Source: Flavobacteriales bacterium (GTDB taxonomy: Bacteria; Bacteroidota; Bacteroidia; Flavobacteriales_F; PHOS-HE28). From it: a stretch of 61,538 nt of DNA. The stretch covers positions 1-61,538 of the forward strand of contig JAIOIH010000075.1 of the NCBI GenBank assembly GCA_019912395.1. The letters run 5' to 3'. This document shows, in pieces, positions 32,635 through 52,003 of this stretch. The position numbers and the translations under genes are program-made. Below the pieces are notes generated by a model. It did not search any database, was not told where the DNA came from, and saw nothing but the letters and a program-made list of their open reading frames with translations. Numbering within the stretch: position 1 is the first letter of the stretch; every line of letters starts with the position of its first letter.

Positions 32635-32642
32635 TACATTTG
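32635..32642 (+). promoter_or_regulatory. TAnnTTTG promoter-like box before the PPIase operon
   Basis: TACATTTG matches the -7 consensus exactly and lies about 25-30 bp upstream of the preferred start codon (32666/32669), before a four-gene run. A TTG at 32622-32624 is too close (10 bp) to be the -33 element. Confidence 0.45.
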
Positions 32643-32665
32643 TCGCCCTTTCAATGCAACCCATC

Positions 32666-34816: not shown

Positions 34817-35688
34817 TGCGAACTGCGGGCATTCAGCCTCGAACGGGCAGGGGAAGGGCGGCGATCATCGCCGCCCTTCTCCTTGCGGCATGCACTTCCG
34901 GGCACAATGCTTCGGACAAGGTGGTGGCCGAGGCCTATGATGACAAGCTCTATTGGAGCGACCTGCGCCTGGTGGTGCCCTTGACCGCCAGCCCCGAGGA
35001 CAGTGCGGCCATCGCCCGGCGCTTCCTGGACAATTGGGCGAGGAACCGCGTGATCCTGCACATGGCGGAACAGAACCTGGACAAGGACCAGATCAATGTG
35101 GAAGCCCAGTTGAAGTCCTATCGTGAATCCCTCCTCACCTTCGCGTATGAGCAGGCGCTGGTGTTGCAGAACCTGGACACGGTTGTGACCGGAACCCAGG
35201 TGCAGGAGTATTATGACAAGAACATCGCCAACTTCCAGCTGAAGGACAATATCGTCCGCGTACGTTGGTTCAAGCTGCGTGGGGACGACAAAAAGCTGGT
35301 GAAGCGCGTGGAACAGCTCTGGAGGAGCAACGACAAGGAGGAGCTCCACAAGCTGGAAGTGCTCCTGGCACGCCAGGGGACGGCCATAGTGGATACCCAT
35401 GAAGAGTGGATGGAGTTCAGCGCCTTGCAGCAACAAGTGCCCCTGCGGCCTGAGAATCCGACCGATTGGCTCCAGCGGCAGCAGAAAGTGACCGTGGATG
35501 ATCCCAATGGTACTTACTTCGTGAACTTTCTGGACCATCGCCTCAAGGACAGTACCTCACCCATAGACCTGGTGGAAGCCCAGATCCGCGCCATCATCAT
35601 CAACCAGCGCAAGCTCAAGCTCGTGGAACGCATGCGCGAAGAACTCTATACCAATGCCGTGGCCAACAAGGATGTCCGTTTCCCGTAA
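34816..35688 (+). CDS. SurA-N-like lipoprotein without a parvulin domain
   Basis: A 290-residue lipoprotein (signal RGRAAIIAALLLAAC with lipobox LAAC). The remainder is charged helical sequence resembling the N-terminal chaperone part of SurA/PpiC proteins, for example LDNWARNRVILHMAEQNLDK and ALVLQNLDTVVTGTQVQEYY. No parvulin catalytic pattern (GGDLG...F.P.F) is seen, so it is probably a chaperone only. It starts inside the stop codon of the upstream PPIase gene and overlaps the downstream one by 17 bp, so the three are translationally coupled and likely work together on outer-membrane proteins. Confidence 0.75.
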   Translation: MRTAGIQPRTGRGRAAIIAALLLAACTSGHNASDKVVAEAYDDKLYWSDLRLVVPLTASPEDSAAIARRFLDNWARNRVILHMAEQNLDKDQINVEAQLKSYRESLLTFAYEQALVLQNLDTVVTGTQVQEYYDKNIANFQLKDNIVRVRWFKLRGDDKKLVKRVEQLWRSNDKEELHKLEVLLARQGTAIVDTHEEWMEFSALQQQVPLRPENPTDWLQRQQKVTVDDPNGTYFVNFLDHRLKDSTSPIDLVEAQIRAIIINQRKLKLVERMREELYTNAVANKDVRFP

Positions 35689-37072
35689 AGCCGCAGCGGC
35701 GCTCCTTGGCCTGCTGGGCTGTGCCGGGCCGTTGCAGGCCATTGCGCAGGCACAGGAACAGAAGCCCGCCCCGCCGGGCCGCTACATCGATGGTGTCATC
35801 GCCAACGTGGCCGGGCGCATCATCCTGTACAGCGATCTGGCAGGCCGCTTGGAACAAGCGCGACAGAACGGCGAGGCCGTTACCGATACGATGGCCTGCA
35901 ATGAGCTGGAAGACCTGCTCTACCAACAGCTCCTACTGGAACAGGCACGCATCGACAGTGTGATACCCGATGAAGCCCAGATCGGTGCGGAACTGGACAG
36001 GCGTATCAGCTACTTCGAACAACAGATCGGAGGGCGTGACAAGCTGGAGAAGTTCTATGGGAAAAGCGTCACCGAGATCAAGGCTGATTTCCACGACCAA
36101 GTGGCCGACCAGCTCCTGAGCCAGCAGATGCAGCAGACGATCATCGGGGACGCACGCGTGACCCCGAAGGAGGTGGAGCGCTTTTTCAAGGAGATCCCCG
36201 CGGACAGCTTGCCCTTCATCAACGCCGGCGTGGAATTCGCACGGATCTCCATCTATGCCAAGCCCACCGATGAAGAGGACCGCCGGGTTAAGTTGAAGCT
36301 GGAAGAATACCGGAACGCCATCGTGAAGGGCGAAAAGGACTTTTGCACCATGGCCATCCTCTACAGTGAGGACCCCGGCTCGGCCGCGCAGTGCGGCGAA
36401 CTGGGCATGGTTCCGCAAGGCGTCATGGTACCGGAGTTCGATGCCGTGGCCATGAGCTTGAAGGACGGGGAGATCTCACCTGTTTTCCGTACCAAGTACG
36501 GCTACCACATCATGGAGATGATCGATCGCAAGGGCGACCAGTACAATGCGCGCCACATCCTGCTGACGCCAAAACCTTCCCCGGCGGATGTAACGGCCGC
36601 GAAGAACCGCCTGGACAGCCTGATGACACAGGTGCGGGACGGCAAGCTCGACTTCAGCAAGGCTGCCAGCGAATACAATGAGGACGAGGAGACCAAGGGC
36701 ACCAACGGACTGGTCCTGGAGCCGAACAGCAACAGCGCCCACTGGGCCATCGGCGATCTGGACCAACGAACCTTCCTCGTGATCGATAAATTAGCGACAG
36801 GCCAGATCAGCGAGCCAATGGCCTTTGAGGACCCGGACGGTAAAAAGGGGTACAGGGTCCTGCGCCTCCTGAAACACACCGAACCCCACCGGATGGACCT
36901 TGTGCATGACTACCCCCTTGTACAGCAAGCGGCCGAGGCCAAGCTTCGGCAGCGGAGCGTGGATTCCTGGGTGAAGGAAAAGCTCGCCAGCACCTACGTG
37001 AACATCATACCGGCCTACCATGGCTGCGCGTTTGAGCACCCTTGGCTGGGTGCTTCCGTGCAGCAACCCTAA
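35672..37072 (+). CDS. SurA-like periplasmic peptidyl-prolyl isomerase
   Basis: A 466-residue protein. The signal peptide is MSVSRKAAAALLGLLGCAGP, then LQAIAQAQ. The SurA N-domain follows (DGVIANVAGRIILYSDLAGR, then ELEDLLYQQLLLEQARID). Two parvulin domains follow. The first has VEFARISIYAKPTDEED, ILYSEDPGSAAQCGELGMVP and KYGYHIMEMIDRKGDQ. The second has NARHILLTPKPSPADV and AASEYNEDEETKGTNGL and is more divergent. This is the classical SurA arrangement for outer-membrane protein biogenesis. It overlaps the preceding lipoprotein gene by 17 bp. The open frame reaches to 35654, but 35672 gives a normal signal peptide. Confidence 0.88.
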   Translation: MSVSRKAAAALLGLLGCAGPLQAIAQAQEQKPAPPGRYIDGVIANVAGRIILYSDLAGRLEQARQNGEAVTDTMACNELEDLLYQQLLLEQARIDSVIPDEAQIGAELDRRISYFEQQIGGRDKLEKFYGKSVTEIKADFHDQVADQLLSQQMQQTIIGDARVTPKEVERFFKEIPADSLPFINAGVEFARISIYAKPTDEEDRRVKLKLEEYRNAIVKGEKDFCTMAILYSEDPGSAAQCGELGMVPQGVMVPEFDAVAMSLKDGEISPVFRTKYGYHIMEMIDRKGDQYNARHILLTPKPSPADVTAAKNRLDSLMTQVRDGKLDFSKAASEYNEDEETKGTNGLVLEPNSNSAHWAIGDLDQRTFLVIDKLATGQISEPMAFEDPDGKKGYRVLRLLKHTEPHRMDLVHDYPLVQQAAEAKLRQRSVDSWVKEKLASTYVNIIPAYHGCAFEHPWLGASVQQP

Positions 37073-38211: not shown

Positions 38212-40914
38212 ATGCGTAATAGCCTTCTGTTTCTTGCTCTTTTCGCCTCCGCCGTCACCGCGACCTCCCAAACCGCCAGCTTATGGCATGCCGGCCCGAT
38301 GACCTCCTCGGAACGTGGGGAGCGGTTCATCGTCCCTGAACGGGCGCTGTACCTCCAATTGGATACCACTGGAATGCGTTCCTACTTGATGCAGGCTACC
38401 CGGGGGAGCGTGCTGGACCTGGCCGGTTCCTCGGCTATAGTGGAACTTCCTCTTCCCGATGGGGAGTTCCTGAACTTCCGCTTTCTGGAAACCCCGCTGA
38501 TGCACCCGGATATGGGAGCGCGCTACCCCTACATCCGCACCTATTCGGGCATTGCCGTTGACGATCCGCGGATCAGCCTGAAATTCGACCTCACCCCCAG
38601 TGGTTTCCATGCCATGGTGATGGGTTTGCCCGGAGGGGACGTGTTCATCGATCCCGTGGCCATGGGTAATAGTGTTCAGCACCAGGTGTATTGGAAGCGT
38701 GATCTGCGGCCTTCCCCGGGGAGAAGCTCGATGACCTGTACGTATGACGAAGTGAACGACCTGCCGCACGAGATGGCCCGAACGGCTCAGTGGATCGAGC
38801 AGGCAGGTGATGCCCGTGCCGGTGATTGCCAGTTCCGTACCTATCGACTGGCCTTGGCCTGTACGGGTGATTACGCCAATTTTTTCGGGGCGACCGGAAG
38901 CAACAAGGCACCGGCCATCGCGGCCATGGCCACCTCGCTGAACCGGGTGAACGGGATCTTCGAACGCGATGCCGCATTGACCATGGTGCTCGTGGCCAAC
39001 AACGACCAGCTGGTCTTCACCAACCCCGCCACCGATGGCTATACCAACTATGATGGCGGCACCATGCTCGATGAGAACCAGACGAAATGCGACGCCGTGA
39101 TCGGTAGTTCCAACTACGATATCGGGCACGTGTTCAGTACTGGTGGCGGTGGTGTTGCCTATCTCAATTCACCCTGCATGGGATATAAAGCCGGCGGTGT
39201 TACCGGGCGATCATCCCCTGTTGGAGATCCTTTCGACATTGACTATGTCGCGCATGAGATGGGCCATCAGTATGGCGGCAACCATACGCAGAACAACAAT
39301 TGCAATCGGGCCGGTTCTGCGGCCGTGGAGGTGGGCAGCGGCATCACCATCATGGGCTATGCCGGCGTTTGTGCACCGGACGTGGAACCCCACAGCATCG
39401 CCATGTTCGGAGGATACAGCCTACAGGAGATCCATGCCAACATCACCACGGGCAACAGCAGTACCTGTCCGCAAACGGTGGCGTTGATCAACTCGCCGCC
39501 GACGGTGAGCGCAGGGTCGGACCGCACGATCCCGCGCAATACACCCTTTGTGCTTTCCGCCGTGGCGTCCGACCCTGATGCCGGTGACCTCCTTACCTAC
39601 AGCTGGGAACAAATGGACTCGCAGTCCTCCACACAACCTCCTTCCGCGAACAGCAACAGGGGGCCCAACTTCCGGCCTTGGCTTCCCGTGCCCGAGCCCC
39701 AGCGCTGGTTCCCCAAGCTTTCCACCGTGGCCTCAGGTACCAACCCCACCCCGAACTGGGAGGTGCTGGCGAATGTCGCCCGGACCTATTCCTTCAGGGT
39801 TACCGTGCGTGACAATGCCGCTGGAGGTGGGTGCAACGTGCAGGACAACGTGACCATCACCGTAAGCGGCACCACCGGACCGTTCCTGGTCACTCAGCCC
39901 AATACGGCCGTCACTTGGGCGGGTGGTAGTGCCCAAACGGTCACTTGGGACCCCGCCGGCACGTCCGGATCACCCGTGAACTGCGCGAACGTGGATATTC
40001 TGTTGAGCGTGGACGGTGGCCTTACGTACCCCTACACGCTGGCCACTGCGACCCCGAACGACGGGAGCCACTCGGTGACCCTGCCGAACACGGCGACCAC
40101 GAACGCCCGCGTGATGGTGCGTGCGAACGGCAATGTCTTTTACGACATGAGTGATCAGGACTTCACCATCACGGCACCCGAACAGGTGTTGGTGAATGCG
40201 AAGGTCTGGTTGGAAGGTCCCTTTTCCGGAGGTCAGATGAACGACGACCTGCGTATCGCGGGGTTGATTCCAACCTCCGAACCCTATACGGCCCTAGGGT
40301 TCACGCAGGTCGGCAACGGGGGCGGCGAAAGTTGCGCCCCTTCGGTACTGAACGCAACAGGCGCGAACGCCATCGTGGACTGGGTCCGATTGGAGCTACG
40401 CGCAGCCGGGTCCTCATCCGCGATCGTAGCCACACGTCAAGCCCTGCTTCAACGGGATGGTGATATCGTGGATGTGGACGGCACTTCCCCTGTCGCCTTC
40501 GTGGTCCCGGCAGGAAATTATCATGTCGCGGTCAGGCATAGGAACCACTTGGGCTGTATGACGGTAAATGCGATATCCATGGGGGCTGTAGCAACGACCG
40601 TGGACCTTGCCGCTCCGGCAACCGCCACTTTTGGTACGGATGCGCGGAAATCCCTGAATGGGGAGCGACTACTTTGGATGGGAAATGCACATGTTGACAA
40701 TAAGCTCAGTTACACTGGAGCCCAGAACGATCGGGACCCGATCATAAATCGGATAGGAACCGATCCCACCATAAGCATGCCCGGCTACTATACGGAGGAT
40801 TGCAACATGGACGGTGTTGTCCGCTATACCGGGTCGCTCAATGACCGTGATCCGATCCTCGTTAACTTGGGCGGGTCCATACCGACCACCATCCGCCTGG
40901 AACAGTTGCCGTGA
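38212..40914 (+). CDS. Secreted M12B/reprolysin-like zinc metalloprotease with C-terminal dockerin-like EQLP module
   Basis: A 900-residue secreted protein (signal MRNSLLFLALFASAVTATSQ). A propeptide-like beta region (~20-210) precedes the metzincin domain. The zinc site HExxHxxGxxH is HEMGHQYGGNH at 348-358, followed by the Met-turn region TIMGYAG. Beta-sandwich modules follow, first RTIPRNTPFVLSAVASDPDA, then a PKD-like region with VTWAGGSAQTVTWDPAGTSG. The last ~240 residues (from ~40185) are a module shared with the next protein. It contains YHVAVRHRNHLG and two tandem dockerin-like motifs beginning at 40681 (GNAHVDNKLSYTGAQNDRDP) and 40795 (EDCNMDGVVRYTGSLNDRDP), and ends RLEQLP. No type A or B T9SS sorting domain is present. 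The start is the ATG before the signal peptide; the frame is open to 38071. Confidence 0.87.
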   Translation: MRNSLLFLALFASAVTATSQTASLWHAGPMTSSERGERFIVPERALYLQLDTTGMRSYLMQATRGSVLDLAGSSAIVELPLPDGEFLNFRFLETPLMHPDMGARYPYIRTYSGIAVDDPRISLKFDLTPSGFHAMVMGLPGGDVFIDPVAMGNSVQHQVYWKRDLRPSPGRSSMTCTYDEVNDLPHEMARTAQWIEQAGDARAGDCQFRTYRLALACTGDYANFFGATGSNKAPAIAAMATSLNRVNGIFERDAALTMVLVANNDQLVFTNPATDGYTNYDGGTMLDENQTKCDAVIGSSNYDIGHVFSTGGGGVAYLNSPCMGYKAGGVTGRSSPVGDPFDIDYVAHEMGHQYGGNHTQNNNCNRAGSAAVEVGSGITIMGYAGVCAPDVEPHSIAMFGGYSLQEIHANITTGNSSTCPQTVALINSPPTVSAGSDRTIPRNTPFVLSAVASDPDAGDLLTYSWEQMDSQSSTQPPSANSNRGPNFRPWLPVPEPQRWFPKLSTVASGTNPTPNWEVLANVARTYSFRVTVRDNAAGGGCNVQDNVTITVSGTTGPFLVTQPNTAVTWAGGSAQTVTWDPAGTSGSPVNCANVDILLSVDGGLTYPYTLATATPNDGSHSVTLPNTATTNARVMVRANGNVFYDMSDQDFTITAPEQVLVNAKVWLEGPFSGGQMNDDLRIAGLIPTSEPYTALGFTQVGNGGGESCAPSVLNATGANAIVDWVRLELRAAGSSSAIVATRQALLQRDGDIVDVDGTSPVAFVVPAGNYHVAVRHRNHLGCMTVNAISMGAVATTVDLAAPATATFGTDARKSLNGERLLWMGNAHVDNKLSYTGAQNDRDPIINRIGTDPTISMPGYYTEDCNMDGVVRYTGSLNDRDPILVNLGGSIPTTIRLEQLP

Positions 40915-40999
40915 CCTGTTCTTCGCTCCTTTGTCAAGCGCGAATTCTCGATGGACTTCGTTTTATTGCCGCCTAATCGTGCAATAGCTTCGCTGAAGG

Positions 41000-41030
41000 T
41001 TGACCGGGCTCAGCATTAGGTGTAGGTTTG
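41000..41030 (+). promoter_or_regulatory. Promoter TTG-N20-TAGGTTTG before the FG-GAP protein gene
   Basis: TTG at 41000-41002 and TAGGTTTG at 41023-41030 are separated by exactly 20 bp. This is a full match to the Bacteroidota promoter pattern (TTG near -33, TAnnTTTG near -7). The start codon at 41054 is 23 bp further downstream, giving a short leader. Confidence 0.75.
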
Positions 41031-41053
41031 CATTTCCACATTTCATTGAACGC

Positions 41054-43261
41054 ATGAAACGATCACGTACCCTGCTTGCCCTTCTCGTGCTTGCACCGGC
41101 TGTAGCCTTCGGGCAAACGTTCACATTGAGCACGGGCATCCTTTCCGATCAAAGTGCACATTCCGGGGGGTGCGTGGGCATCGCTGATATGGACGGCGAT
41201 GGCTACGACGATCTGATCCTGTTGGACCAGAGCAAGAACCTCTATATCGACTATCAAGGAGCGAATGGCACCTTCACCTCTTTCTACATGGGGCAGGCCT
41301 CTTCATCCTCACAATGGGGCATGGCCGCAGGGGACGTGGACAATGACGGGCATAAGGACTTCTTCAGCGGCGGAAATGGCGATGGTGTCCATTTCCTGAG
41401 GATGAGCGGAAGGGGAGCGGGGTCATGGAGCAACTTGAACAATGGAAGCATTTTCATGCAATGCGCCAACATGGCCGACATCAACAATGATGGTTGGCTG
41501 GACGCCTTCGGTTGCCACGACAACGCGGCACCCAAGATCTGGATGAATGATGGCGCGGGCAACCTGTCCTACAACGACTATATCGATTTCGCCACCAACC
41601 CGTCCAGCGATGCGAGCGGCAATTACGGCAGTGTGTTCATCGACTTCGACAATGACGGGGACCTGGACTTTTTCATTGCCCATTGCAGGCAGGGCGTCAA
41701 CAACCCCGCCGACCCCCGTAGATGGAACCGCCTGTTCGTCAATGATGGAACCAACCATTATACCGACCAAGCGTTGACCTACGGCGTTCAGAACCGGGAG
41801 CAGTCCTGGACCACCGACTTTGGCGACATTGACAATGATGGCGATCTGGACATGGTGGTAACCAACCACAGTCGCAGCATGCAGCTGTTCCTGAACGACG
41901 GCACAGGGCATTACACGGAGGCCACTACTGGAAGTGGATTGGAAGTGACTGCGGCTTTCCTGCAGTCCAAGTTCGAGGACCTGGACAACGACGGATTCCT
42001 GGACCTGATCACCAGCGGAAACCTGGGCGGCAGTGCGGAGTTCTACTTTCATGGCAACGGTGATGGCACCTTCACCCAAATGCCGAACATGCTGCCCGAA
42101 CCGTCCTCGCGCAACCTCCACACCTTCGCATTGGGGGACATGAACCACGACGGCTTCATTGATGTGTACGCGGGCTATGGTTCGGGTTATATCAGCCCCA
42201 GCAGCAGTCGGCGCGACGAGCTGTACCTGAACGACGGGAACAGCAACCACTTCCTGAACTTCAACTTGGAGGGCGTAGCCAGCAACCGCGATGGCGTGGG
42301 GGCACGGGTCACCTTGTACGGGGCTTGGGGAACGCAGATCCGTGAAGTGCGAGCCGGGGAAAGCTATGGCATCGTCTGTTCGTTCACCTGCCACTTCGGA
42401 ATGGGAGCAAGCACGATGGCGGATTCCGCCATCGTGCGTTGGCCCTCTGGCACGGTCGATAAGTACTACGGTCTGGAGGCCGATCAATGGATCACGGTGG
42501 AAGAGGGCGAGACGCGCACCTCGATGGTGGCGGCCAAGGTGCTATTGGACGGCCCCTACGTGCAAGCCACCGGGCTGATGAGCGACAATTTGCGCACCTT
42601 GGGCTTGATACCCGGCTTGGACCCCTATACGACCCAGATGGGTTTCGTGGCCATCGATAACGGTGTTTCTCAACGCATGATCCCCGGTGTGATGGCAACA
42701 ACGGGTTCCAATGCCATTGTGGATTGGGTCTGGTTGGAGCTGCGGTCCGCGGCAAACTCGGCCAATGTGGTAGCGGCCCGTGCGGCACTGGTGCAGCGGG
42801 ATGGCGATGTGGTGGACCTGGACGGAAAGAGTCCCGTGAGCATGTACGCCCCGAACGGCTCATACCACTTGGCCGTGAGGCATCGGAACCATTTGGGCGT
42901 GATGACGGCGAACAACTACACCTTGAACGGCACGGCCACCTCCATTGATCTCAGGTCTCCTTCCACGGCAACATGGGGAACCAATGCCAGGAAATCGGTG
43001 GGGTCCACCCGCACGTTGTGGTCCGGAGAGGTCCATGTGGATGGGAAGGTGAAGTTCACCGGTGCGGCCAACGATCGTGACGCAGTGGTGGTCGCCATGG
43101 GTGGAATGATACCGACAGCTACCGTCGCGGGATACCTCGCGGCAGACGTGAACCTGGACGGATCGGTGAAGTTGACCGGACCAGCGAACGATAGAGATCC
43201 CATCCTGCTGAACGTCGGTGGGACTTCGCCAACGGTGGTGGTGGTGGAGCAACTCCCTTGA
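41054..43261 (+). CDS. Secreted FG-GAP/VCBS repeat protein with ASPIC/UnbV domain and dockerin-like EQLP module
   Basis: A 735-residue protein with signal MKRSRTLLALLVLAPAVAFG, then Q. Residues ~20-400 are FG-GAP/VCBS repeats with calcium-loop patterns such as DMDGDGYDDLILLD, DVDNDGHKDFF, DINNDGWLDAFG, DFDNDGDLDFFI and DLDNDGFLDLI, which form a beta-propeller. An ASPIC/UnbV-type segment follows (NRDGVGARVTLYGAWGTQIR, then CHFGMG and VRWPSG), as in CRTAC1-like proteins. From ~42524 to the end it carries the module shared with the preceding metalloprotease, with two dockerin-like motifs at 43025 (GEVHVDGKVKFTGAANDRD) and 43142 (ADVNLDGSVKLTGPANDRDP), and ends VVEQLP. The true start is the ATG at 41054; upstream in-frame TTG at 41000 is part of the promoter. 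Confidence 0.88.
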   Translation: MKRSRTLLALLVLAPAVAFGQTFTLSTGILSDQSAHSGGCVGIADMDGDGYDDLILLDQSKNLYIDYQGANGTFTSFYMGQASSSSQWGMAAGDVDNDGHKDFFSGGNGDGVHFLRMSGRGAGSWSNLNNGSIFMQCANMADINNDGWLDAFGCHDNAAPKIWMNDGAGNLSYNDYIDFATNPSSDASGNYGSVFIDFDNDGDLDFFIAHCRQGVNNPADPRRWNRLFVNDGTNHYTDQALTYGVQNREQSWTTDFGDIDNDGDLDMVVTNHSRSMQLFLNDGTGHYTEATTGSGLEVTAAFLQSKFEDLDNDGFLDLITSGNLGGSAEFYFHGNGDGTFTQMPNMLPEPSSRNLHTFALGDMNHDGFIDVYAGYGSGYISPSSSRRDELYLNDGNSNHFLNFNLEGVASNRDGVGARVTLYGAWGTQIREVRAGESYGIVCSFTCHFGMGASTMADSAIVRWPSGTVDKYYGLEADQWITVEEGETRTSMVAAKVLLDGPYVQATGLMSDNLRTLGLIPGLDPYTTQMGFVAIDNGVSQRMIPGVMATTGSNAIVDWVWLELRSAANSANVVAARAALVQRDGDVVDLDGKSPVSMYAPNGSYHLAVRHRNHLGVMTANNYTLNGTATSIDLRSPSTATWGTNARKSVGSTRTLWSGEVHVDGKVKFTGAANDRDAVVVAMGGMIPTATVAGYLAADVNLDGSVKLTGPANDRDPILLNVGGTSPTVVVVEQLP

Positions 43262-43314: not shown

Positions 43315-46300
43315 ATGCTGATGGCATCTGCCCGACTTCTCCTGACCAAACAACTCATTCGCATCGGCTTCTTCAGTGCCATGCTCCTTGCAGTGGCGCT
43401 GCCAGCCTCCGCGCAAAGCGATGTGATCCCCTCGTCCGTAGATATTCGATTGGTGCAAGGCTCCACTGCGGATGATCTCCTGGTGCAGGTGAAGTTGAAC
43501 AGTACTGCGTCTTTCGGCGGGATCTTCAGCGCGTTGACCGTCACGATCCGCTATGATGCGGCTTCCGGAGCGTCCCTGGGTGCGGGAACCAGCTTTTGCA
43601 ACGCATGGAGCGCCTTCACCCCTTCGCCTGTGGTCACGGACAACGGCATGGCCTATCGGACGTACAATGGTTTCGGCATCAACCGATTGGAAGACCCTCC
43701 CTTCGACGGCGGTTGCGGGGTCAGCATTCCGGCGGGTACCTGGTTCACCATTACGACCATCCCGGTGAGCGGTGGTTCCTGCACTGCGTTCACGATGGGC
43801 AACGATGCCTATACGGGTGCCGAGAACCGGGATTACTACATCTCCATGGCGGGAACTGATGTCACCGGCCTGGTGACGGGCGGTCCTGTGAATGGGGGCA
43901 ATTGTCTTCCCGATTGCCTTGGTGTTATTGGGGGTACGGCACTTCCGGGCACGGCTTGCGATGATGGCGATCCAGGCACCACGAATGATACGTGGAGTGC
44001 TGGTTGTGAATGCGCCGGCACGCCCATTTGTATCCCTCCGGCGATAACCGGCACCACAAGCAATTCACCCCTCTGTTCGTCCTCTTCGCTCAACTTGGGC
44101 GTCACCGCCAGTGGTACCGGTCCGTTGAGCTATGCATGGACGGGAACGGGCACTTTCAGTCCGAATGCGTCCTCCCAGAACGTTACCGTTTCAGGAGCGG
44201 CTTCGGGCAACTATCAGGTGGTGGTGACGAATGCTTGCGGCACGGCTTCTTCCAGTGTTCCTGTTGTGGTGAACACGGCCCCCTCGGCGACGATCTCCTA
44301 TAGTGGCTCACCCTTCTGCACTTCGGGCGGCACGGCGAGCGTGACGCGCACGGGCAGTGCTGGCGGCACCTATAGCGCCACCCCTGCTGGCTTGTCGATC
44401 AGCTCGAGCACGGGCGCGATCACCTTGGGAACGAGCAGTGCGGGCACGTACACGGTGACCTACAGCATCGCTGCCTCCGGCGGATGCACGGCGTTCAGCA
44501 CCACGGCCTCGGTGGTGATCGGCGCGGCCCCCTCGGCGACGATCTCCTACAGCGGTTCACCCTTCTGCACCTCGGGCGGCACGGCGAACGTAACGCGCAC
44601 GGGCACCACGGGCGGCACGTACAGCGCAACACCTTCGGGCCTTTCGATCAGCTCCAGCACGGGTGCGATCACCTTGGGAACGAGCAGTGCGGGCACGTAC
44701 ACGGTGACCTACAGCATCGCTGCCTCCGGCGGATGCACGGCGTTCAGCACCACGGCCTCTGTGGTGATCGGCACGGCCCCCTCTGCGACGATCTCCTACA
44801 GCGGTTCACCCTTCTGCACTTCGGGCGGCACGGCGAGCGTGACGCGCACGGGCAGCACGGGCGGCACGTACAGTGCAACACCCTCAGGCCTTTCGATCAG
44901 CTCCAGCACGGGTGCGATCACCTTGGGAACGAGCAGTGCGGGCACGTACACGGTGACGTACAGCATCGCGGCATCGGGTGGATGCGCGGCGTTCAGTACC
45001 ACGGCCTCGGTGGTGATCGGCGCGGCCCCCTCGGCGACGATCTCCTACAGCGGCTCACCCTTCTGCACCTCGGGCGGCACGGCGAACGTGACGCGCACGG
45101 GCAGCACGGGCGGCACGTACAGTGCAACACCCTCAGGCCTTTCGATCAGCTCCAGCACGGGTGCGATCACCTTGGGTTCGAGCAACGCAGGCACGTACAC
45201 GGTGACGTACAGCATCGCTGCCTCGGGAGGATGCGCGGCGTTCAGCACCACGGCGGCTGTCGTGGTCAATGCCGCTCCAACTGCAACCATCTCCTATACG
45301 GAAGCTCCGTATTGCACTTCAGGCGGTACGGCAGCTGTGACACGCACCGGGAATACCGGCGGGACCTATAGTGCCACACCTGCCGGACTGGTCATCGATC
45401 CCAACAGTGGCACGGTCAACCTGGGCACGAGCGTTGCTGCTTCGTACACGGTCACCTATTCGATCGCAGCTTCAGGCGGGTGTTCCACGTTCAGCACCAC
45501 GGCAGTGATCGTGATCGGTCAGGCACCAACAGCCTCGATCGCATACCCCGGTTCGCCATACTGTACCTCGGGTACCACGGCCACCGTATCCTTGACGGGC
45601 GCAGGTGGAGGAAGCTTCACAGCGGCCCCGGCCGGACTGGCGATCAACGCGGGGTCCGGAACCGTCGACCTGGGTGCAAGCGCGATCGGGACCTATACGG
45701 TCACGTATTCCATCGCGCCCAATGGAGGCTGTGCCGCTTATTCCACCACGGCCCAAATTTCGATCGGTGCGGCACCTTCGGCGAGCATTGTGTACAGCGG
45801 TTCGCCCTACTGCTCGTCGCTGGGGCAGGCGGATGTGACCCGCACCGGTTCCTCGGGTGGCGTGTTCAGCGCCACGCCTGTCGGCCTGGTGATCGACGAC
45901 GCGACGGGTAGCATCAACCTGTCGGCCAGTACAGCGGGCAACTATACGGTGACATACGCCATTGCGGCTGCGGGAGGATGCTCCGCGTTCAGTACCACCA
46001 CCCCGGTGTCCATCGGTGCCGCACCTTCCGCAACGATCTCCTACCTCGGTTCACCGTATTGCACTTCCGGAGGCAGCGCGAGCGTCACGCGCACGGGCAC
46101 CCCGGGCGGATCCTTCAGCGCTACCCCTGCCGGGCTGTCCATCAACTCGGTGTCGGGTACCATCGATCCGGGCAATAGCACGGCAGGAACATACACGGTC
46201 ACCTATGCCATTGCTGCGGGAGGCGGTTGCACGGCGTACAGCACCACGGCCGATGTAGTGATCGATCAGGCACCGTCCGCCGGTATCTTCTATGGCGGTT

Positions 46301-49300
46301 CACCCTATTGCACGGATGGTGGTACGGCAACAGTTTCGCTTTCAGGGACCAGCGGGGGATCGTTCAGCGCGGTTCCTTCGGGATTGTCGATCAATGCCGG
46401 CACCGGTGCCATCACCTTGGCGAGCAGCACGGCAGGTACCTATACCGTGACGTACAGCATTGCTGCGGCAGGCGGTTGCGCGGCATTCACCACCACGGCC
46501 TCCCTGGTGGTCGGTGCAGCTCCTTCCGCAACCATTGAATATGCCGGTTCGCCCTATTGTTCCGGCGGCGGCACCGTGAACGTTACGCGCACCGGTACGG
46601 CCGGTGGCACGTATGCGGCTGTTCCCGGAGGGCTATCCCTGAATGCAAGCAATGGGTCGGTCAACATCGGAACGAGCACTCCGGGTTCATATACGGTCAC
46701 GTACAGCGTGGCTGCCACGGGAGGTTGCGCAGCATTCTCCACTACGGCGCCCTTGGTGATCGGCACGGCGCCTTCTGCTACCATCGAGTATCCAGGCTCT
46801 CCTTTCTGCACCACGGACGGTCCTGCCAGTGTGTCGAGGTCGGGCAGTGGAGGTGGAACGTATGGTTCCGATCCAGCGGGCTTGTCCTTGAACGCATCCA
46901 CTGGTACGATCGACCCGGGGGCGAGCTCCGCCGGTTCCTACACGGTGACGTACAGTATTGCGGCTTCCGGAGGTTGCAGCGCTTTCTCAACCACGGCGCA
47001 GGTCGTCATTGAAACGGCCTCAACGTGGTATGCGGACACGGATGGTGACGGTGCCGGTGATCCCGGAGTCATCTTGCTCGCTTGCGAGCAACCTACCGGT
47101 TACGTAGCAGTCGCGGGTGATGATTGTCCGACCGATCCGAACAAGACAGAACCCGGTGCTTGTGGTTGCGGGGTTGCGGATACCGACACGGACCTGGACG
47201 GTGTGCCCGATTGCATCGATAGTTGCCCCTTGTTGGCTGGCGGGATCGGCGATGCCTGCGACGACGGCGATCCGAACACGACGAACGACGTGGTCACTGC
47301 CGATTGCGAATGCCTGGGCACGGTGGTCTACGACTGCCCGGCTCTGATGGCGAACATCGGCGATGCCTGCGACGACGGTGATCCGAACACGACGAACGAC
47401 GTGGTCACTGCCGATTGCGAATGCCTGGGCACGGTGGTCTATGATTGTCCGGTGCTAATGGCGAACATCGGCGACTCCTGCGACGATGGCGATCCGAACA
47501 CGACGAACGATATGGTCACGGCCGATTGCGTTTGTTTGGGTACACCGCTCTGTGAACCACCGACCATTGACTCGACGACAAGTGATTCACCTGTCTGTTC
47601 CGGATCTGCGCTCAGTTTGGGTGTGTCCGCGAGCGGCACCGGACCGCTCAGTTATGCATGGTCGGGCACGGGATTGTTCGACCCAAGCGCCCTCTCCCAG
47701 GATGTGAGCGTTACGAACGCGGCCACGGGTGATTACCAAGTGACGGTAACGAATGCTTGCGGCTCGGTCTCCTCAACGGTTTCCGTGGTGGTGACCCCTG
47801 CTCCGTCCGCGACGATCACCTATGAGGATTCGCCCTATTGCAACACGGGTGGCAATGCGAACGTGACGCGCATTGGTACGGCGGGAGGCACCTATAGCGC
47901 CCTTCCTGCGGGAGCGACCATCGACGCGGGATCAGGCACGATCGATCTGGATGTGAGCGAGGTGGGTGTCTACACCGTGAGCTACACCATTGCTGCAAAC
48001 GGTGGCTGTGCATCATTCACCACAACCACGGATGTCACCATCCAGGCCGCCACGGTCTGGTATGCGGATGTGGACGGTGATGGAGTGGGTTCGGATGATG
48101 GCAGTGTGATCGCCTGCGAACAACCGACGGGCTATGTGGCCATCAACGGGGATGACTGCCCCAACGACCCGGACAAGTTGTCGCCCGGAATCTGTGGCTG
48201 CGGAATACCCGACACGGACACGGATAGCGACGGCACTGCGGACTGCATCGACGGTTGCCCCACCGACCCGGACAAGATCGCTCCGGGGGACTGTGGATGC
48301 GGTGTTCCGGATACCGACTCGGACGGGGACGGCATTGCCGATTGCATCGACAGCTGCCCATCGCTGCCCGGCCAGATAGGGGATGCTTGCGACGACAACG
48401 ATCCGGGGACCGAAGATGATGTGATCACGGCCGATTGCGTCTGTGTCGGAACCATCATTTACGATTGCCCGGACCTGATGGCGAACATCGGTGATGCCTG
48501 CGACGACGGCGATCCGAACACGACGAACGATATGATCACGGCGGATTGCGAATGCTTGGGCACGGTGGTCTACGACTGCCCGGTGCTGATGGCGAACATC
48601 GGCGATGCCTGCGACGACGGCGACCCGAACACGACGAACGACGTGGTCACTGCCGATTGCGAATGCCTGGGCACGGTGGTCTATGACTGTCCGGTGCTGA
48701 TGGCGAACATCGGCGATGCCTGCGACGATGGCGATCCGAACACGACGAACGATATGGTCACGGTCGATTGCGAATGCGTGGGCACGGTGGTCTACGACTG
48801 TCCGGTGCTGATGGCGAACATTGGCGATGCCTGCGACGATGGTGACCCGAACACGACGAACGATGTGGTCACGGCCGATTGCGAATGCCTGGGCACGGTG
48901 GTCTATGATTGCCCGGACCTGATGGCGAACATCGGGGATGCCTGCGACGACGGTGATACATTGACCGTGGACGACATGATCACCGAGGACTGCATTTGTC
49001 TAGGTGACATCCCTGACGGCATAAATGATCCGGAAGGAGCTTCAGGGGTGTCGATCGCCTTGTTCCCGAACCCCAACCGAACCGGTCTGGTGACCCTGCA
49101 CATCGAAGGTTTGGCCAAGGACGCAAGCGCGGTGTTGATAGAGGTGCACGATGCTGCAGGAAGACGTGTTTACCAAGGGACTGCCTTGGCCCTAGGCGGC
49201 ATTCTCGACCATCGCATGGATCTTTCCAACCAAGTCTCCCAAGGTCTTTACATGGTAAAAGCCATCGCCGGGGATCAACGCTACCTCCAACGATTGGTGA

Positions 49301-49308
49301 TCCAATAG
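43315..49308 (+). CDS. Giant T9SS-secreted repeat protein (1997 aa) with cohesin-like N-terminal domain
   Basis: Signal peptide within residues 1-34 (FFSAMLLAVALPASAQ). Residues ~35-200 form a beta-rich domain, LLVQVKLNSTASFGGIFSAL through TIRYDAASGASLGAG, that resembles a cohesin fold. An Ig-like module follows. Eleven tandem 83-residue repeats cover 44278-47016, each with SPYC/SPFC, TRTG, GTYTVTYSIA and GGC...FSTTA. Three Cys-rich CDDGDPNTTND repeats follow, then an Ig-like module, a twelfth 83-residue repeat, TSP3-like calcium segments (DTDTDSDGTADCIDGCPTDP) and five more CDDGDP repeats. The C-terminal ~80 residues are a type A T9SS sorting domain (ALFPNPNRTG..., ending GLYMVKAIAGDQRYLQRLVI), so the protein is probably exported and attached to the surface. 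ATGs at 43315 and 43321 are both possible. Confidence 0.9.
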   Translation: MLMASARLLLTKQLIRIGFFSAMLLAVALPASAQSDVIPSSVDIRLVQGSTADDLLVQVKLNSTASFGGIFSALTVTIRYDAASGASLGAGTSFCNAWSAFTPSPVVTDNGMAYRTYNGFGINRLEDPPFDGGCGVSIPAGTWFTITTIPVSGGSCTAFTMGNDAYTGAENRDYYISMAGTDVTGLVTGGPVNGGNCLPDCLGVIGGTALPGTACDDGDPGTTNDTWSAGCECAGTPICIPPAITGTTSNSPLCSSSSLNLGVTASGTGPLSYAWTGTGTFSPNASSQNVTVSGAASGNYQVVVTNACGTASSSVPVVVNTAPSATISYSGSPFCTSGGTASVTRTGSAGGTYSATPAGLSISSSTGAITLGTSSAGTYTVTYSIAASGGCTAFSTTASVVIGAAPSATISYSGSPFCTSGGTANVTRTGTTGGTYSATPSGLSISSSTGAITLGTSSAGTYTVTYSIAASGGCTAFSTTASVVIGTAPSATISYSGSPFCTSGGTASVTRTGSTGGTYSATPSGLSISSSTGAITLGTSSAGTYTVTYSIAASGGCAAFSTTASVVIGAAPSATISYSGSPFCTSGGTANVTRTGSTGGTYSATPSGLSISSSTGAITLGSSNAGTYTVTYSIAASGGCAAFSTTAAVVVNAAPTATISYTEAPYCTSGGTAAVTRTGNTGGTYSATPAGLVIDPNSGTVNLGTSVAASYTVTYSIAASGGCSTFSTTAVIVIGQAPTASIAYPGSPYCTSGTTATVSLTGAGGGSFTAAPAGLAINAGSGTVDLGASAIGTYTVTYSIAPNGGCAAYSTTAQISIGAAPSASIVYSGSPYCSSLGQADVTRTGSSGGVFSATPVGLVIDDATGSINLSASTAGNYTVTYAIAAAGGCSAFSTTTPVSIGAAPSATISYLGSPYCTSGGSASVTRTGTPGGSFSATPAGLSINSVSGTIDPGNSTAGTYTVTYAIAAGGGCTAYSTTADVVIDQAPSAGIFYGGSPYCTDGGTATVSLSGTSGGSFSAVPSGLSINAGTGAITLASSTAGTYTVTYSIAAAGGCAAFTTTASLVVGAAPSATIEYAGSPYCSGGGTVNVTRTGTAGGTYAAVPGGLSLNASNGSVNIGTSTPGSYTVTYSVAATGGCAAFSTTAPLVIGTAPSATIEYPGSPFCTTDGPASVSRSGSGGGTYGSDPAGLSLNASTGTIDPGASSAGSYTVTYSIAASGGCSAFSTTAQVVIETASTWYADTDGDGAGDPGVILLACEQPTGYVAVAGDDCPTDPNKTEPGACGCGVADTDTDLDGVPDCIDSCPLLAGGIGDACDDGDPNTTNDVVTADCECLGTVVYDCPALMANIGDACDDGDPNTTNDVVTADCECLGTVVYDCPVLMANIGDSCDDGDPNTTNDMVTADCVCLGTPLCEPPTIDSTTSDSPVCSGSALSLGVSASGTGPLSYAWSGTGLFDPSALSQDVSVTNAATGDYQVTVTNACGSVSSTVSVVVTPAPSATITYEDSPYCNTGGNANVTRIGTAGGTYSALPAGATIDAGSGTIDLDVSEVGVYTVSYTIAANGGCASFTTTTDVTIQAATVWYADVDGDGVGSDDGSVIACEQPTGYVAINGDDCPNDPDKLSPGICGCGIPDTDTDSDGTADCIDGCPTDPDKIAPGDCGCGVPDTDSDGDGIADCIDSCPSLPGQIGDACDDNDPGTEDDVITADCVCVGTIIYDCPDLMANIGDACDDGDPNTTNDMITADCECLGTVVYDCPVLMANIGDACDDGDPNTTNDVVTADCECLGTVVYDCPVLMANIGDACDDGDPNTTNDMVTVDCECVGTVVYDCPVLMANIGDACDDGDPNTTNDVVTADCECLGTVVYDCPDLMANIGDACDDGDTLTVDDMITEDCICLGDIPDGINDPEGASGVSIALFPNPNRTGLVTLHIEGLAKDASAVLIEVHDAAGRRVYQGTALALGGILDHRMDLSNQVSQGLYMVKAIAGDQRYLQRLVIQ
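44278..47016 (+). repeat. Eleven tandem 249-bp coding repeats (83 aa each)
   Basis: Repeat units start at 44278, 44527, 44776, 45025, 45274 and so on every 249 bp. The first four are nearly identical at the DNA level (for example CTCGGCGACGATCTCC recurs at exact 249-bp spacing, with TCTGCGACGATCTCC in unit 3). Units 5-11 have diverged in DNA but keep the protein pattern and exact length. All unit boundaries stay in frame. Confidence 0.95.
47218..47550 (+). repeat. 111-bp Cys-rich coding repeats, first cluster (about three units)
   Basis: Units of 37 residues with consensus YDCPxLMANIGDACDDGDPN, TTNDVVTADCECLGTVV. Full units begin at 47329 and 47440 (111 bp apart), preceded by a partial unit SCPLLAGGIGDACDDGDPN. 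Four to five Cys and many Asp per unit suggest disulphide-linked or calcium-binding loops. Confidence 0.9.
48460..49014 (+). repeat. 111-bp Cys-rich coding repeats, second cluster (five units)
   Basis: Units start at 48460, 48571, 48682, 48793 and 48904, exactly 111 bp apart, and are very similar in DNA to the first cluster. The last unit diverges (TLTVDDMITEDCICLG) where it joins the linker to the sorting domain. A degenerate copy (CPSLPGQIGDACDDNDPGTE) precedes the cluster. Confidence 0.92.
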
Positions 49309-49603: not shown

Positions 49604-52003
49604 ATGATGGGATCCAGATCATTTTCAGGACGAGTCCTTCGGGCCGCGAGCCTTCTTGCACTTGTATTGACATTCGGCCTTGCGCGGGCCCAAACGGATA
49701 TCATTCCCTCCTCGGTCGATGCCAGATTGGTCCATGGAGCTTCCACTGACCAGCTGCTCGTACAGTTGAAGATCCACAGTACGGATGATTTCGGCGGGAT
49801 CCTCAGCGCGCTCACCATCACCATACATTATGATGCTGCCTCGGGTTCATCATTGGGTGCTGGTACCAGCTTTTGCAATGCGTGGAGCGCCTTCACCCCC
49901 ACACCGGTGGTGCTCAATGGGGGCATCGCCTACCGGACCTACAATGGCTTCGGTGTCAATCGATTGGAAGACCCTGTATTCGATGGAGGTTGCGCCACTT
50001 CCCTGGTCCCCGAACAGTGGTTCACAATTACCACGATCCCGGTGGCTGGAAGCGGATGCACCACGTTCTCGTTGGACAATGATGCCTTCACCCAACAGTC
50101 GAACCGCAACTTCTATGTGTCCATGGGCGGTCATGATGTGACCGGGCAAGTGGTTGGTGGTTCCTTGAACGGAGGCGCATGCACACCGGACTGCCTCGGT
50201 ACGATCGGGGGCACTGCCTTGCCCGGGACGCCTTGCGATGACAATGACCCGAACACCAGCGATGACACTTGGACCGCTGATTGCGTTTGCATAGGAACCG
50301 GATGCGTTGCTCCTGCCATCACCGGGACATCGAACAATGGCCCGATCTGTTCCGACAATGACCTGAACTTGTCCGTATCGGCCACGGGTTCCGGGCCGTT
50401 GACCTATGCGTGGACCGGTCCGGGCACCTTTTCCCCCGATGCCGCCTCGGCAAGTGTAACCGTGGGCGGGGCGGCATCGGGTACGTACCAAGTCTCGGTA
50501 ACGAACTCCTGCGGGAATGCGGCGGCCTCCATTCCCGTGGTGGTGCAACAGGCCCCAGTGGCGGCGATCTCCTATGACGGGTCACCCTATTGCACCACCG
50601 GAGGCACGGTAAACGTCACCCGGACGGGCACCCCCGGTGGCACGTACAGTTCCGCCCCAAACGGTCTGTCGATCAGCTCCGGCACGGGCGCGATCACCTT
50701 GAGCGCGAGCAGCGCGGGCACATACACGGTGACCTATAGCATCGCGGCTTCCGGAGGTTGTGCAGCGTTCAGCACTACGGCTGGTGTCGTCATCAACCCG
50801 GCCCCTTCAGCGACGATCGCCTACAGCGGTTCGCCTTACTGCAATTCGGGAGGCACGGTGAACGTGACACGCACGGGCAGCTCTGGCGGAACCTATAGCG
50901 CCACCCCTGCCGGCTTGTCGATAAGCGGCAGCACTGGCGCGATCAACCTCGGAGCGAGCACGGCTGGCAGCTACACGGTGACGTACAGCATCGCGACTTC
51001 CGGAGGTTGTGCGGCGTTCAGTACGACAGCCAATGTGGTCATCAATTCGGGGCCCTCGGCCACCATCTCGTACAGCGGCTCACCTTATTGCACCAACGGC
51101 GGCACGGCTTCGGTCACACGTACCGGCAGCAGTGGGGGAGCTTATACTGCGGCTCCCGGTGGCTTGTCGATCAATGGGAACACCGGGGCGATCAACTTGG
51201 GGAACAGCACAGCGGGCACGTATACGGTGACCTATGGTATTGCGACCAGCGGCGGTTGCATGGCGTTCACTACCACGGCCACGGTGGTGATCAACAGCGC
51301 GACAACATGGTATGCGGACGCGGACAACGATGGCGTAGGGGACGATGCAAGCACGGTACAGGCCTGTACCCAACCTGCGGGATATGTAGCGGTGGGCGGT
51401 GATCTGTGCCCGGATGACCCCGCCAAGGTTTCACCAGGGACGTGCGGCTGTGGAATTCCGGACACGGACACGGACAATGATGGAACTGCGGATTGTGTGG
51501 ATGGATGCCCCACCGACCCGAACAAGGTCGCACCCGGAATTTGTGGTTGCGGCATTCCGGATACCGATACGGACCTGGACGGATCGGCGGACTGCATTGA
51601 CAATTGCCCTTCGCTCGAGGGTGTCATTGGGGACCCATGTGACGACGGCGATAACACGACCACCAACGACGTCATTACCCCGGATTGCGTTTGCGAAGGC
51701 ACGATCACTGTTGGCATTGCGGAATCGGAGGGAACTCCGGAGGCCACTATGAACGTGTATCCGAATCCCAATGCCACGGGAACTGTATTCCTGGATCTGG
51801 ACGGGCTTTCCATGGGTGATGGGCCCGCGTTGATCGAGATCCACGATGTCTCCGGACGCCTTGTGCATCAAGCATCCGCCTTGCAAGTTGGAGGAAAGGT
51901 CCACCTCGCCATGGATCTTTCGACGGGAGTGGGCCGGGGCCTCTACTTGGTACGGGTGACGACGAACGGACACCGCTATTTGCGGCAGTTGGTCATGCAA
52001 TAG
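49604..52003 (+). CDS. T9SS-secreted repeat protein (799 aa), paralogue of the upstream giant protein
   Basis: Signal peptide MMGSRSFSGRVLRAASLLAL, then VLTFGLARAQ. The N-terminal cohesin-like domain (TDIIPSSVDARLVHGASTDQ, ILSALTITIHYDAASGSSLG, SFCNAWSAFTPTPVV) is strongly similar to that of the preceding protein, so the two genes arose by tandem duplication. An Ig-like module follows, then three 83-residue repeats (50552-51298), TSP3-like calcium segments (GIPDTDTDNDGTADCVDGCP and GIPDTDTDLDGSADCIDNCP), one CDDGD segment and a type A T9SS sorting domain (NVYPNPNATG..., ending GLYLVRVTTNGHRYLRQLVM). Starts at 49604 or 49607 both fit; the frame is open to 49562. Confidence 0.9.
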   Translation: MMGSRSFSGRVLRAASLLALVLTFGLARAQTDIIPSSVDARLVHGASTDQLLVQLKIHSTDDFGGILSALTITIHYDAASGSSLGAGTSFCNAWSAFTPTPVVLNGGIAYRTYNGFGVNRLEDPVFDGGCATSLVPEQWFTITTIPVAGSGCTTFSLDNDAFTQQSNRNFYVSMGGHDVTGQVVGGSLNGGACTPDCLGTIGGTALPGTPCDDNDPNTSDDTWTADCVCIGTGCVAPAITGTSNNGPICSDNDLNLSVSATGSGPLTYAWTGPGTFSPDAASASVTVGGAASGTYQVSVTNSCGNAAASIPVVVQQAPVAAISYDGSPYCTTGGTVNVTRTGTPGGTYSSAPNGLSISSGTGAITLSASSAGTYTVTYSIAASGGCAAFSTTAGVVINPAPSATIAYSGSPYCNSGGTVNVTRTGSSGGTYSATPAGLSISGSTGAINLGASTAGSYTVTYSIATSGGCAAFSTTANVVINSGPSATISYSGSPYCTNGGTASVTRTGSSGGAYTAAPGGLSINGNTGAINLGNSTAGTYTVTYGIATSGGCMAFTTTATVVINSATTWYADADNDGVGDDASTVQACTQPAGYVAVGGDLCPDDPAKVSPGTCGCGIPDTDTDNDGTADCVDGCPTDPNKVAPGICGCGIPDTDTDLDGSADCIDNCPSLEGVIGDPCDDGDNTTTNDVITPDCVCEGTITVGIAESEGTPEATMNVYPNPNATGTVFLDLDGLSMGDGPALIEIHDVSGRLVHQASALQVGGKVHLAMDLSTGVGRGLYLVRVTTNGHRYLRQLVMQ
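50552..51298 (+). repeat. Three tandem 249-bp coding repeats (83 aa each)
   Basis: Units begin at 50552, 50801 and 51050 and have the same 83-residue pattern and length as the eleven repeats of the upstream gene (SPYC, TRTG, GTYTVTYSIA, GGCAAFSTTA). DNA identity between units is lower than among the first four units of the upstream array. Confidence 0.93.

Follow-up and report, generated by a model that had tools for sequence, protein, structure and literature searches.

A C-terminal module with the predicted fold of X-module-dockerin dyads and its cohesin-like neighbours suggest plug-and-socket protein attachment in Bacteroidota

Introduction

In the clostridia C. thermocellum and A. cellulolyticus, cellulosomes are anchored by the pairing of a type II cohesin with an X-dockerin, as set out in PMC5141474. 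In the Cloacimonadota, a cellulosome-like complex, in which a T9SS-anchored cohesin scaffoldin would be combined with dockerin-bearing enzymes, has been proposed for Ca. Stygibacter (PMC8542988). Here we describe a locus of a Flavobacteriales bacterium, lying in a window of 61,538 nucleotides (the whole stretch of DNA that was analysed; contig JAIOIH010000075.1, assembly GCA_019912395.1), that suggests, by predicted folds, an undescribed plug-and-socket means of fixing many different proteins on the Bacteroidota surface. Two plug genes are directly followed on the same strand by two candidate socket genes, which lie past the coordinates given for the module in the first-pass annotation (Table 1). 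The C-terminal module shared by the former is probably a docking plug of the X-module-dockerin (XDoc) type, and the latter encode its candidate sockets, namely T9SS type A proteins with cohesin-like domains.

Table 1. Coordinates of plug and candidate socket features in the window
Feature	Position	Strand	Basis or remark
Plug protein 1: secreted M12B reprolysin-like metalloprotease, PKD, module at C-terminus	38212..40914	+	
X-module-like beta domain, plug protein 1 (module residues 1-165)	40183..40677	+	AF2, fold matches
Dockerin-like loop 1, plug protein 1 (+4 insertion), NAHVDNKLSYTGAQND	40684..40731	+	
Dockerin-like loop 2, plug protein 1 (+4 insertion), DCNMDGVVRYTGSLND	40798..40845	+	
C-terminal EQLP, plug protein 1	40900..40911	+	
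Plug protein 2: secreted FG-GAP, ASPIC/UnbV protein, module at C-terminus	41054..43261	+	
X-module-like beta domain, plug protein 2	42518..43021	+	Homology to plug protein 1
Dockerin-like loop 1, plug protein 2	43028..43075	+	
Dockerin-like loop 2, plug protein 2	43145..43192	+	
C-terminal EQLP, plug protein 2	43247..43258	+	
Candidate socket 1: large repeat protein, N-terminal cohesin-like and C-terminal T9SS type A domain	43315..49308	+	
Cohesin-like domain, socket 1	43420..43896	+	AF2, Foldseek, VIA
T9SS type A sorting domain (TIGR04183), socket 1	49060..49305	+	39.9 bits, over cut-off
Candidate socket 2: cohesin-like and type A sorting domain	49604..52003	+	
Cohesin-like domain, socket 2	49700..50173	+	68% identity to socket 1 domain
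T9SS type A sorting domain, socket 2	51755..51994	+	39.6 bits, over cut-off

The shared module

The first-pass annotation had proposed that the metalloprotease and the FG-GAP protein end in one common module, and the last 243-247 residues of both are indeed homologous (54% identity, E 4e-81). This module of about 243 residues has no Pfam or NCBIfam match. The 4.13-Mb assembly contains nine full-length copies, all nine at the extreme C-terminus, plus one broken tail piece. A lack of C-terminal conservation had been named as evidence against the proposal; conservation proved strong across the module relatives, 79 of 80 having a stop codon, which in all 79 coincides with the module end. Among distant relatives, L013 and L038 carry about 30 residues beyond the terminal motif, showing that the C-terminal position is not absolute, and L018 has a stop codon inside the module. 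In the genus survey the module was found in 45 of 45 genomes, with 4 to at least 28 copies per genome. A search of 72,556 plasmid records gave no module match at E 0.001, and a scan for promoters and terminators returned sites no more numerous than in shuffles. The passengers are diverse: 57 proteins include PKD, M12B, GSDH, peptidyl-arginine deiminase, lysyl oxidase, metallophosphatase and M36.

The twin dockerin-like motifs that had been read from the sequence are borne out for motif 2, which fits the pattern D-x-N-x-D-G-x-V...T-G-x-x-N-D-R-D and has D206, N220 and D221 in all 88 modules of the alignment; motif 1 departs from it at positions 1 (N or D) and 3 (variable). The terminal EQLP is less fixed than the "invariant" ending first described, since seven of the nine own-genome copies end in EQLP or EQLPD and the remaining ones in GTIP and EAMP; among 88 modules, 82 have the Q and 87 the last P. 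By loose patterns, 84 of 88 window-clade modules contain two loops, each 4 residues longer than the 12-residue dockerin loop. Among 29 distant relatives scored with loose patterns, at least one loop of canonical length occurs in 19, the longer form in 6 and neither in 4. Dockerin_1 (PF00404) matched none of 81 modules (2 from the window, 79 relatives) at E<=0.1, and 8 of 29 distant relatives at the same threshold (best E 0.001).

The module of plug protein 1 was modelled by AlphaFold2 with a pLDDT of 97.5 and a pTM of 0.93, and the closest solved folds to this predicted structure are type II X-module-dockerin dyads. In Foldseek, XDoc chains or chains that include XDoc occupy ranks 1-4, 6, 8, 10 and 11, among them 2b59_B (E 0.014, prob 0.94); no match reached E 0.001 and the TM by query length was 0.34, that is, a moderate fold match. 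In VIA, ranks 1-8 are all type II XDoc entries with Z 8.2-9.7, the next Z being 5.4, where guidance for the structure aligner holds that a best Z of 7 to 8 is frequent for models without a clear match. The alignments of these entries span residues 1-243 of the model (1-238 for the eighth). Rank 10 is 1qmu (Z 4.7), a protein that PMC5141474 sets beside the X-module for comparison. As modelled, the module consists of an Ig-like X-module followed by a dockerin of two loop-helix motifs, which is the composition of an XDoc dyad.

The candidate sockets

Candidate socket 1 starts 53 nt past plug protein 2. The AF2 model of its N-terminal domain (pLDDT 87.4, pTM 0.84) has, judged by fold matches, the nine-stranded flattened beta-sandwich of cohesins. 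Each of the 50 Foldseek matches listed is a cohesin or a chain that contains one (E 6e-5 to 2e-3, prob 0.99-1.00), with TM 0.34-0.51 by query length and rmsd of at least 5.5. VIA placed cohesin or cohesin-like entries at ranks 1-39 (Z 8.2-10.3), with unrelated beta folds close behind cohesins (8.2, 7.6). This cohesin-like family is new and was detected via the neighbours of module genes. Comparison by hhalign with seven PF00963 hits gave about 2% probability, and the family is called cohesin-like by its predicted fold. A Pfam Cohesin was rejected as the own-genome partner; the best PF00963 hit (E 0.57, 11.8 bits vs a cut-off of 24.1) lies outside the socket genes. All three own-genome cohesin-like proteins carry a C-terminal type A domain (TIGR04183) over the cut-off. 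The two window socket proteins do not show the tandem cohesins of a cellulosomal scaffoldin, one cohesin-like domain having been detected in each.

The module and T9SS sorting

The two window plug proteins had been described as lacking type A and B sorting domains; this was confirmed, and neither A, B nor C was found at E<=1. TIGR04183, TIGR04131, NF033708 and PF18962/PF13585 had no match in the two window proteins, in 81 modules or in 29 diverse module tails, and on this basis a type A, B or C sorting domain was rejected for the module. None of the nine own-genome plug genes coincides with the type A places scored (150 of 271 candidates).

It is improbable that the module is itself a further T9SS sorting signal beside A, B and C, read by the translocon or a shuttle, with a purely structural likeness to XDoc. 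Such a signal would account for the extreme C-terminal position and strict conservation of the module, and it would explain how plugs cross the outer membrane. It would also fit the M36 proteases, in which the module occupies the place expected for a type A domain: against NF038113, the model for T9SS type A dependent M36 (cut-off 885), three module-bearing proteins reach 778.7-783.5 bits, their best-matching stretch stops at position 777 of the 869-position model, and the module forms their C-terminus. SprA is present in 51 of 51 module-positive genomes among 395 Bacteroidota, and the module in 0 of 91 SprA-negative ones, so that the wide occurrence without T9SS which the first-pass annotation would have counted against its proposal was not seen; the genome lists were matched by hand, and coverage beyond Bacteroidota consisted of one scan of limited size plus the plasmid search. 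This association is confounded with phylogeny: 15 of the 20 SprA-negative genomes listed belong to one family. Against a sorting signal also stand the Z of 9.7 for XDoc vs 3.4 for 8qb1 (mirolase C-terminal domain), the one T9SS sorting domain in the list, and the fact that the cohesin-like partners next door carry type A domains of their own. Of the "sorting or docking signal" first envisaged, the docking half is favoured by the predicted XDoc fold and the predicted cohesin next door, and the T9SS sorting role of the module is not.

Gene linkage and neighbours

In related as well as distant Bacteroidota, module genes repeatedly lie close to cohesin-like genes on the same strand. With flanks of up to 5 kb considered, cohesin-like genes were found at 8 of the 80 related loci. 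Of 145 cohesin places, 25 (in 17 genomes) have a module among those listed no more than 6 kb away, always on the same strand, vs 1.7 expected under uniform placement. The new cohesin family occurs in 44 of 45 genomes of the genus survey and in 6 of 395 genomes of the phylum; four of the six also have the module, which occurs in 51 of 395 (P 0.003), and in these four both families share contig and strand. The other 47 of the 51 module-positive genomes are without the new family. PF00963 (E<=1e-4) was detected in 27 of 51 module-positive vs 82 of 344 module-negative genomes (Fisher P 4e-5, phylogeny uncorrected), the latter count meaning that cohesins without the module are common. Outside the own genome, only 6 of 94 module places (4 of 50 genomes) are within 6 kb of a typed cohesin, two of them in the same frame; the 70 typed places comprise 66 of PF00963, from which weaker ones were excluded, and 4 from the new family.

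In addition, 29 diverse loci (L012-L040) were inspected for downstream neighbours. In 25 of them an ORF of 200 aa or more on the same strand starts -37 to +309 nt from the end of the module gene, and a type A domain (E<=0.01) was detected in 18 of these 25 neighbours; by a rough estimate (about one gene per kb), chance would yield only a few in 29. By sequence, membership of the new cohesin family is limited to two of the 25, L012 and L025. For a profile test of cohesin relationship, L020 and L038 (by eye LRR-like and TPR-like, respectively) were dropped; the remaining 23 together, L012 and L025 included, gave 95%, and the 21 without these two gave 46%. Three neighbour subgroups gave 1.2, 0.1 and 34%, vs 0.05-0.16% in ten column shuffles of one subgroup.

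Another alternative, which is very unlikely, is that the module serves as a calcium-stabilised terminal cap or adhesion domain, lacks any cohesin partner and is set in an island of surface-protein genes. In its favour, a cohesin neighbour was not detected for seven of the nine own-genome plug genes, and T9SS cargo genes are so plentiful (in the 29 genomes, 52 to at least 137 type A places each) that type A neighbours are not rare. Against it, both halves match partner chains in 2b59, 4u3s, 4wi0, 5g5d, 5m0y, 5k39, 3kcp and 4fl4, module-cohesin linkage exceeds uniform placement, and the small number of cohesins relative to modules in a genome is what sockets and plugs would lead one to expect.

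Proposed docking and its implications

Under the docking explanation, Sec would export plug and socket proteins alike, and T9SS would display the cohesin protein at the cell surface. The X-module, together with calcium in the two loops, may keep the dockerin half of the plug rigid, and this half would grip a face of the cohesin. In this way, enzymes and binding proteins that have no T9SS signal themselves could be kept at the surface. Binding, calcium dependence, surface location and passage of the plug through the outer membrane are what we infer here. One tentative route, which we hold to be rather doubtful, is that plug and partner are already joined in the periplasm, and that the type A domain of the partner then takes the two, folded and bound, through the SprA pore. 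The idea arises because plugs have a signal peptide and no detected T9SS signal, and because the next same-strand gene encodes a type A protein in 18 of 29 loci. If true, one T9SS signal would serve two proteins, which would constitute a co-secretion route in T9SS.

If docking is correct, a surface location could be assigned to module-bearing secreted proteins, in which a sorting signal was not found where tested, and both the module and the new cohesin family would gain a function. Cohesin-X-dockerin anchoring would then extend to T9SS-bearing Bacteroidota, and the route by which proteins without a T9SS signal reach the surface would become directly testable.

Comparison with known systems

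Like the T9SS type A, B and C domains (TIGR04183, TIGR04131, NF033708), the module is C-terminal, modular and borne by secreted proteins of SprA-positive Bacteroidota; unlike them, it lacks a sequence match to these families and finds its best fold matches among XDoc structures. With the clostridial type II system it shares, by predicted fold, an X-module plus dockerin at the C-terminus and a cohesin that sits on a partner with a surface-anchoring signal. Moreover, two relatives (G078, G014) carry Pfam cohesins and the module in one reading frame, in the same cohesin/X-dockerin order as the scaffoldin CipA. It differs in that the host is Gram-negative and the socket bears a T9SS signal, the commonest client families are not cellulases, and the loops in this clade are 4 residues longer.

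The complex proposed for Ca. Stygibacter (PMC8542988) likewise combines a cohesin protein, whose C-terminal domain is of a conserved T9SS type, with enzymes that have a signal peptide and a C-terminal dockerin. There, a single scaffoldin of 3,755 residues with tandem cohesins and CBMs is described, and domains were recognised via InterProScan. The present system, in contrast, has one detected, unrecognised cohesin-like domain per window protein and a predicted XDoc dyad as its counterpart, with linkage of the genes and an occurrence that extends across Bacteroidota.

The shared C-terminal module and its predicted fold

The metalloprotease and the FG-GAP protein were claimed in the first-pass annotation to end in a common module of about 240 residues, and their C-terminal 243–247 residues are indeed homologous, with 54% identity. 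This module was recognised by neither Pfam nor NCBIfam in the two proteins, and a Pfam search of 81 modules at E≤0.1 yielded scattered families only, with at most two members each. The genome that carries them (4.13 Mb, 99% complete) contains the module nine times in full, plus a fragment of one further tail. This broken tail lies in two frames (L121:4194-4488, or contig C6:18196-18348), is by eye nearly identical to the tail of an intact module gene found on that contig at a distance of about 4 kb, and is probably the remnant of a duplication. Alignment of these nine modules with 79 related ones (88 in all) revealed invariant or near-invariant positions including VDW, HRNH, the final P and the loop residues D206, G211, N220 and D221.

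Module genes and neighbouring cohesin-like genes of the window
Feature	Position	Strand	Remarks
M12B reprolysin-like protease with PKD	38212-40914	+	module at C-terminus
FG-GAP and ASPIC/UnbV protein	41054-43261	+	module at C-terminus
Cohesin-like domain protein 1	43315-49308	+	directly behind the two module genes, 53 nt gap
Cohesin-like domain protein 2	49604-52003	+	member of the neighbour family, 295 nt gap

Upstream, three consecutive genes (32603-37072) look by eye like periplasmic PpiC/SurA-type foldases.

The AlphaFold2 model of the module (81 sequences) reached pLDDT 97.5 and pTM 0.93. Foldseek against the PDB gave no match at E 0.001 or below; its first four rows were X-module-dockerin (XDoc) chains from type II cohesin complexes (2b59_B, E 0.014). 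With VIA-align, eight XDoc entries came on top at Z 8.2-9.7, followed by 5.4, and as best Z values of 7 to 8 are common without true kinship according to the tool's own note, the gap beneath the XDoc rows is a better argument for this fold than Z itself. These alignments covered 142-147 residues of targets of at least 153 residues and ran from end to end of the model, except for the eighth (1-238). According to PMC5141474, the X-module resembles 1qmu and is built of two sheets with seven strands in all, a small helix separating strand 1 from strand 2; in the model, a helix at 22-25 follows strand 1, and VIA-align places 1qmu tenth (Z 4.7).

Judged by loose patterns, at least one loop with the canonical 12-residue dockerin spacing occurs in 19 of 29 distant relatives, four extra loop residues in 6/29, and neither form fits the other 4/29, while in the clade of the window 84 of 88 modules have two loops with four extra residues each. 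Pfam Dockerin_1 was the commonest weak match of the distant relatives (8/29 at E≤0.1, best 0.001).

Position of the module and its passengers

The best 80 matches from a scan of one genome per species (84,980 species) are all Bacteroidota by title. An in-frame stop was found in 79 of them, and each of these 79 proteins terminates with the module; at L117 the alignment stopped early, yet the protein ends in EQIP. Among 29 diverse loci across the phylum, the proteins of L013 and L038 continue for about 30 residues more, and that of L018 is shortened by a stop. A start with a signal-peptide-like stretch was detected by a crude rule of our own in 62/65 complete proteins. Among the 25 commonest of the 50 passenger families in 57 of these proteins are PKD, M12B, glucose/sorbosone dehydrogenase, peptidyl-arginine deiminase, lysyl oxidase, metallophosphatase and M36. 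Three M36 module proteins score 778.7-783.5 bits against NF038113 ('T9SS-dependent M36', cut-off 885), and their best stretch ends at position 777 of 869. The last 92 model positions presumably represent the type A domain; that of another protein matches positions 791-867 of this model. On this reading, the module occupies the place of their relatives' sorting domain.

Candidate partner proteins with cohesin-like domains

Comparison of neighbours at 80 module loci revealed secreted proteins that share an N-terminal domain and make up one family. The model of this domain from cohesin-like protein 1 (AlphaFold2, 12 sequences) has pLDDT 87.4 and pTM 0.84. Every one of the 50 Foldseek matches listed is a cohesin or a chain containing one (E 6e-5 to 2e-3, probability 0.99-1.00, TM 0.34-0.51 by query length), and in VIA, cohesin or cohesin-like entries fill ranks 1-39 at Z 8.2-10.3, the first unrelated row also standing at Z 8.2. 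No link between the new cohesin family and PF00963 emerged from sequence profiles. PDB entries 2b59, 4u3s, 4wi0, 5g5d, 5m0y, 5k39, 3kcp and 4fl4 were matched by both module and domain. Between its cohesin-like and sorting domains, protein 1 carries by eye a long array of Cys-rich repeats (IGDACDDGDPNTTNDVVTADCECLGT...) and ~84-residue repeats.

Linkage and spread of the pair

With genomes paired by hand, the module was found in 45/45 genomes of the genus (from 4 copies up to 28 or more in each) and the cohesin in 44/45 (1-6 places each). Among 53 further relatives of the class, four carry the module and one the cohesin, the latter having both. In G439, a 7.2-Mb genome from another family of the class, the module was scored at 15 places and the cohesin-like domain at one. 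Within 6 kb of a listed module lie 25 of 145 cohesin places (17 genomes), a lower bound from comparison with 150 listed module places, against 1.7 expected under uniform placement; all 25 share the strand, and in nine of them 139-185 nt separate the module from the start of the cohesin domain behind it. The window's gene order (protease-module, FG-GAP-module, cohesin) recurs at L041 and L058, whose first passengers are 67% identical, and its last two genes at L075 (FG-GAP assigned by eye).

Across 395 Bacteroidota genomes, the module occurs in 51, the new cohesin family in six and both in four (P 0.003, kinship ignored). In all four, cohesin domain and module share contig and strand, the cohesin lying 89-168 nt behind the module in three and 2.6 kb behind it in G078. 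Pfam Cohesin (E≤1e-4) was detected in 27/51 module-positive versus 82/344 module-negative genomes (Fisher P 4e-5, kinship ignored).

Against the pairing, the new family is absent from 47/51 module-positive genomes, and no cohesin was detected beside 7/9 module genes of the window's genome. Outside it, only 6/94 module places (4/50 genomes) lie within 6 kb of one of 70 cohesin places, a list that omits weaker PF00963 hits; two of the six share a reading frame with the cohesin. An ORF directly follows the module gene at 25 of the 29 diverse loci; 18/25 carry a type A domain and only two belong to the new family. Profile comparison of the others gave mixed probabilities, from 0.1 to 46% depending on the set, and more cohesins are possible among their N-terminal domains.

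Proposed docking, sorting and export

The first-pass annotation had left the choice between a sorting and a docking signal. Docking through the XDoc tail is fairly probable and best supported, given the predicted fold and the cohesin-like neighbours: T9SS would display the cohesin protein, to which module-bearing proteins would attach. The many module proteins and few cohesin proteins per genome agree with this. Export is its weak step, as a T9SS signal was undetected in the module proteins. Possibly, though doubtfully, module protein and partner would form a pair in the periplasm and exit together; the order of module gene then partner gene suggests co-production and decides nothing.

Sorting survives as a rival only. 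The other export route, that the module itself is read by T9SS, is improbable. TIGR04183 exceeds its cut-off at the C-terminus of both cohesin-like proteins of the window and of a third member in its genome (contig C28), and in none of the nine module genes of that genome (150 of 271 candidates scored). As to co-occurrence with T9SS genes, a check proposed in the first-pass annotation, SprA is present in 304/395 genomes and 51/51 module-positive ones (P 5e-7, kinship ignored).

The FG-GAP gene is preceded by 139 nt of intergenic DNA (40915-41053) containing TTGACC...TAGGTTTG, which is near the Bacteroidetes promoter consensus; owing to this promoter-like stretch, the FG-GAP gene and cohesin-like gene 1 may form a unit separate from the protease gene.

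Comparison with known systems

Pfam cohesins and a C-terminal module stand in one reading frame at L141:148-2508 (G078) and L138:7660-9039 (G014). This domain order is that of cellulosomal scaffoldin CipA. Known T9SS signals include types A and B (PMC12618676) and type C (PMC10202324), besides short and long CTDs in P. intermedia (PMC11969387). Searches of the open-licence literature, at the level of listings and selected passages, turned up no account of this module or of the module-cohesin pair. The general idea of a T9SS-linked cohesin/dockerin system is not new, since dockerin enzymes together with a cohesin scaffoldin whose C-terminal domain is of the T9SS type have been proposed for Ca. 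Stygibacter (PMC8542988).
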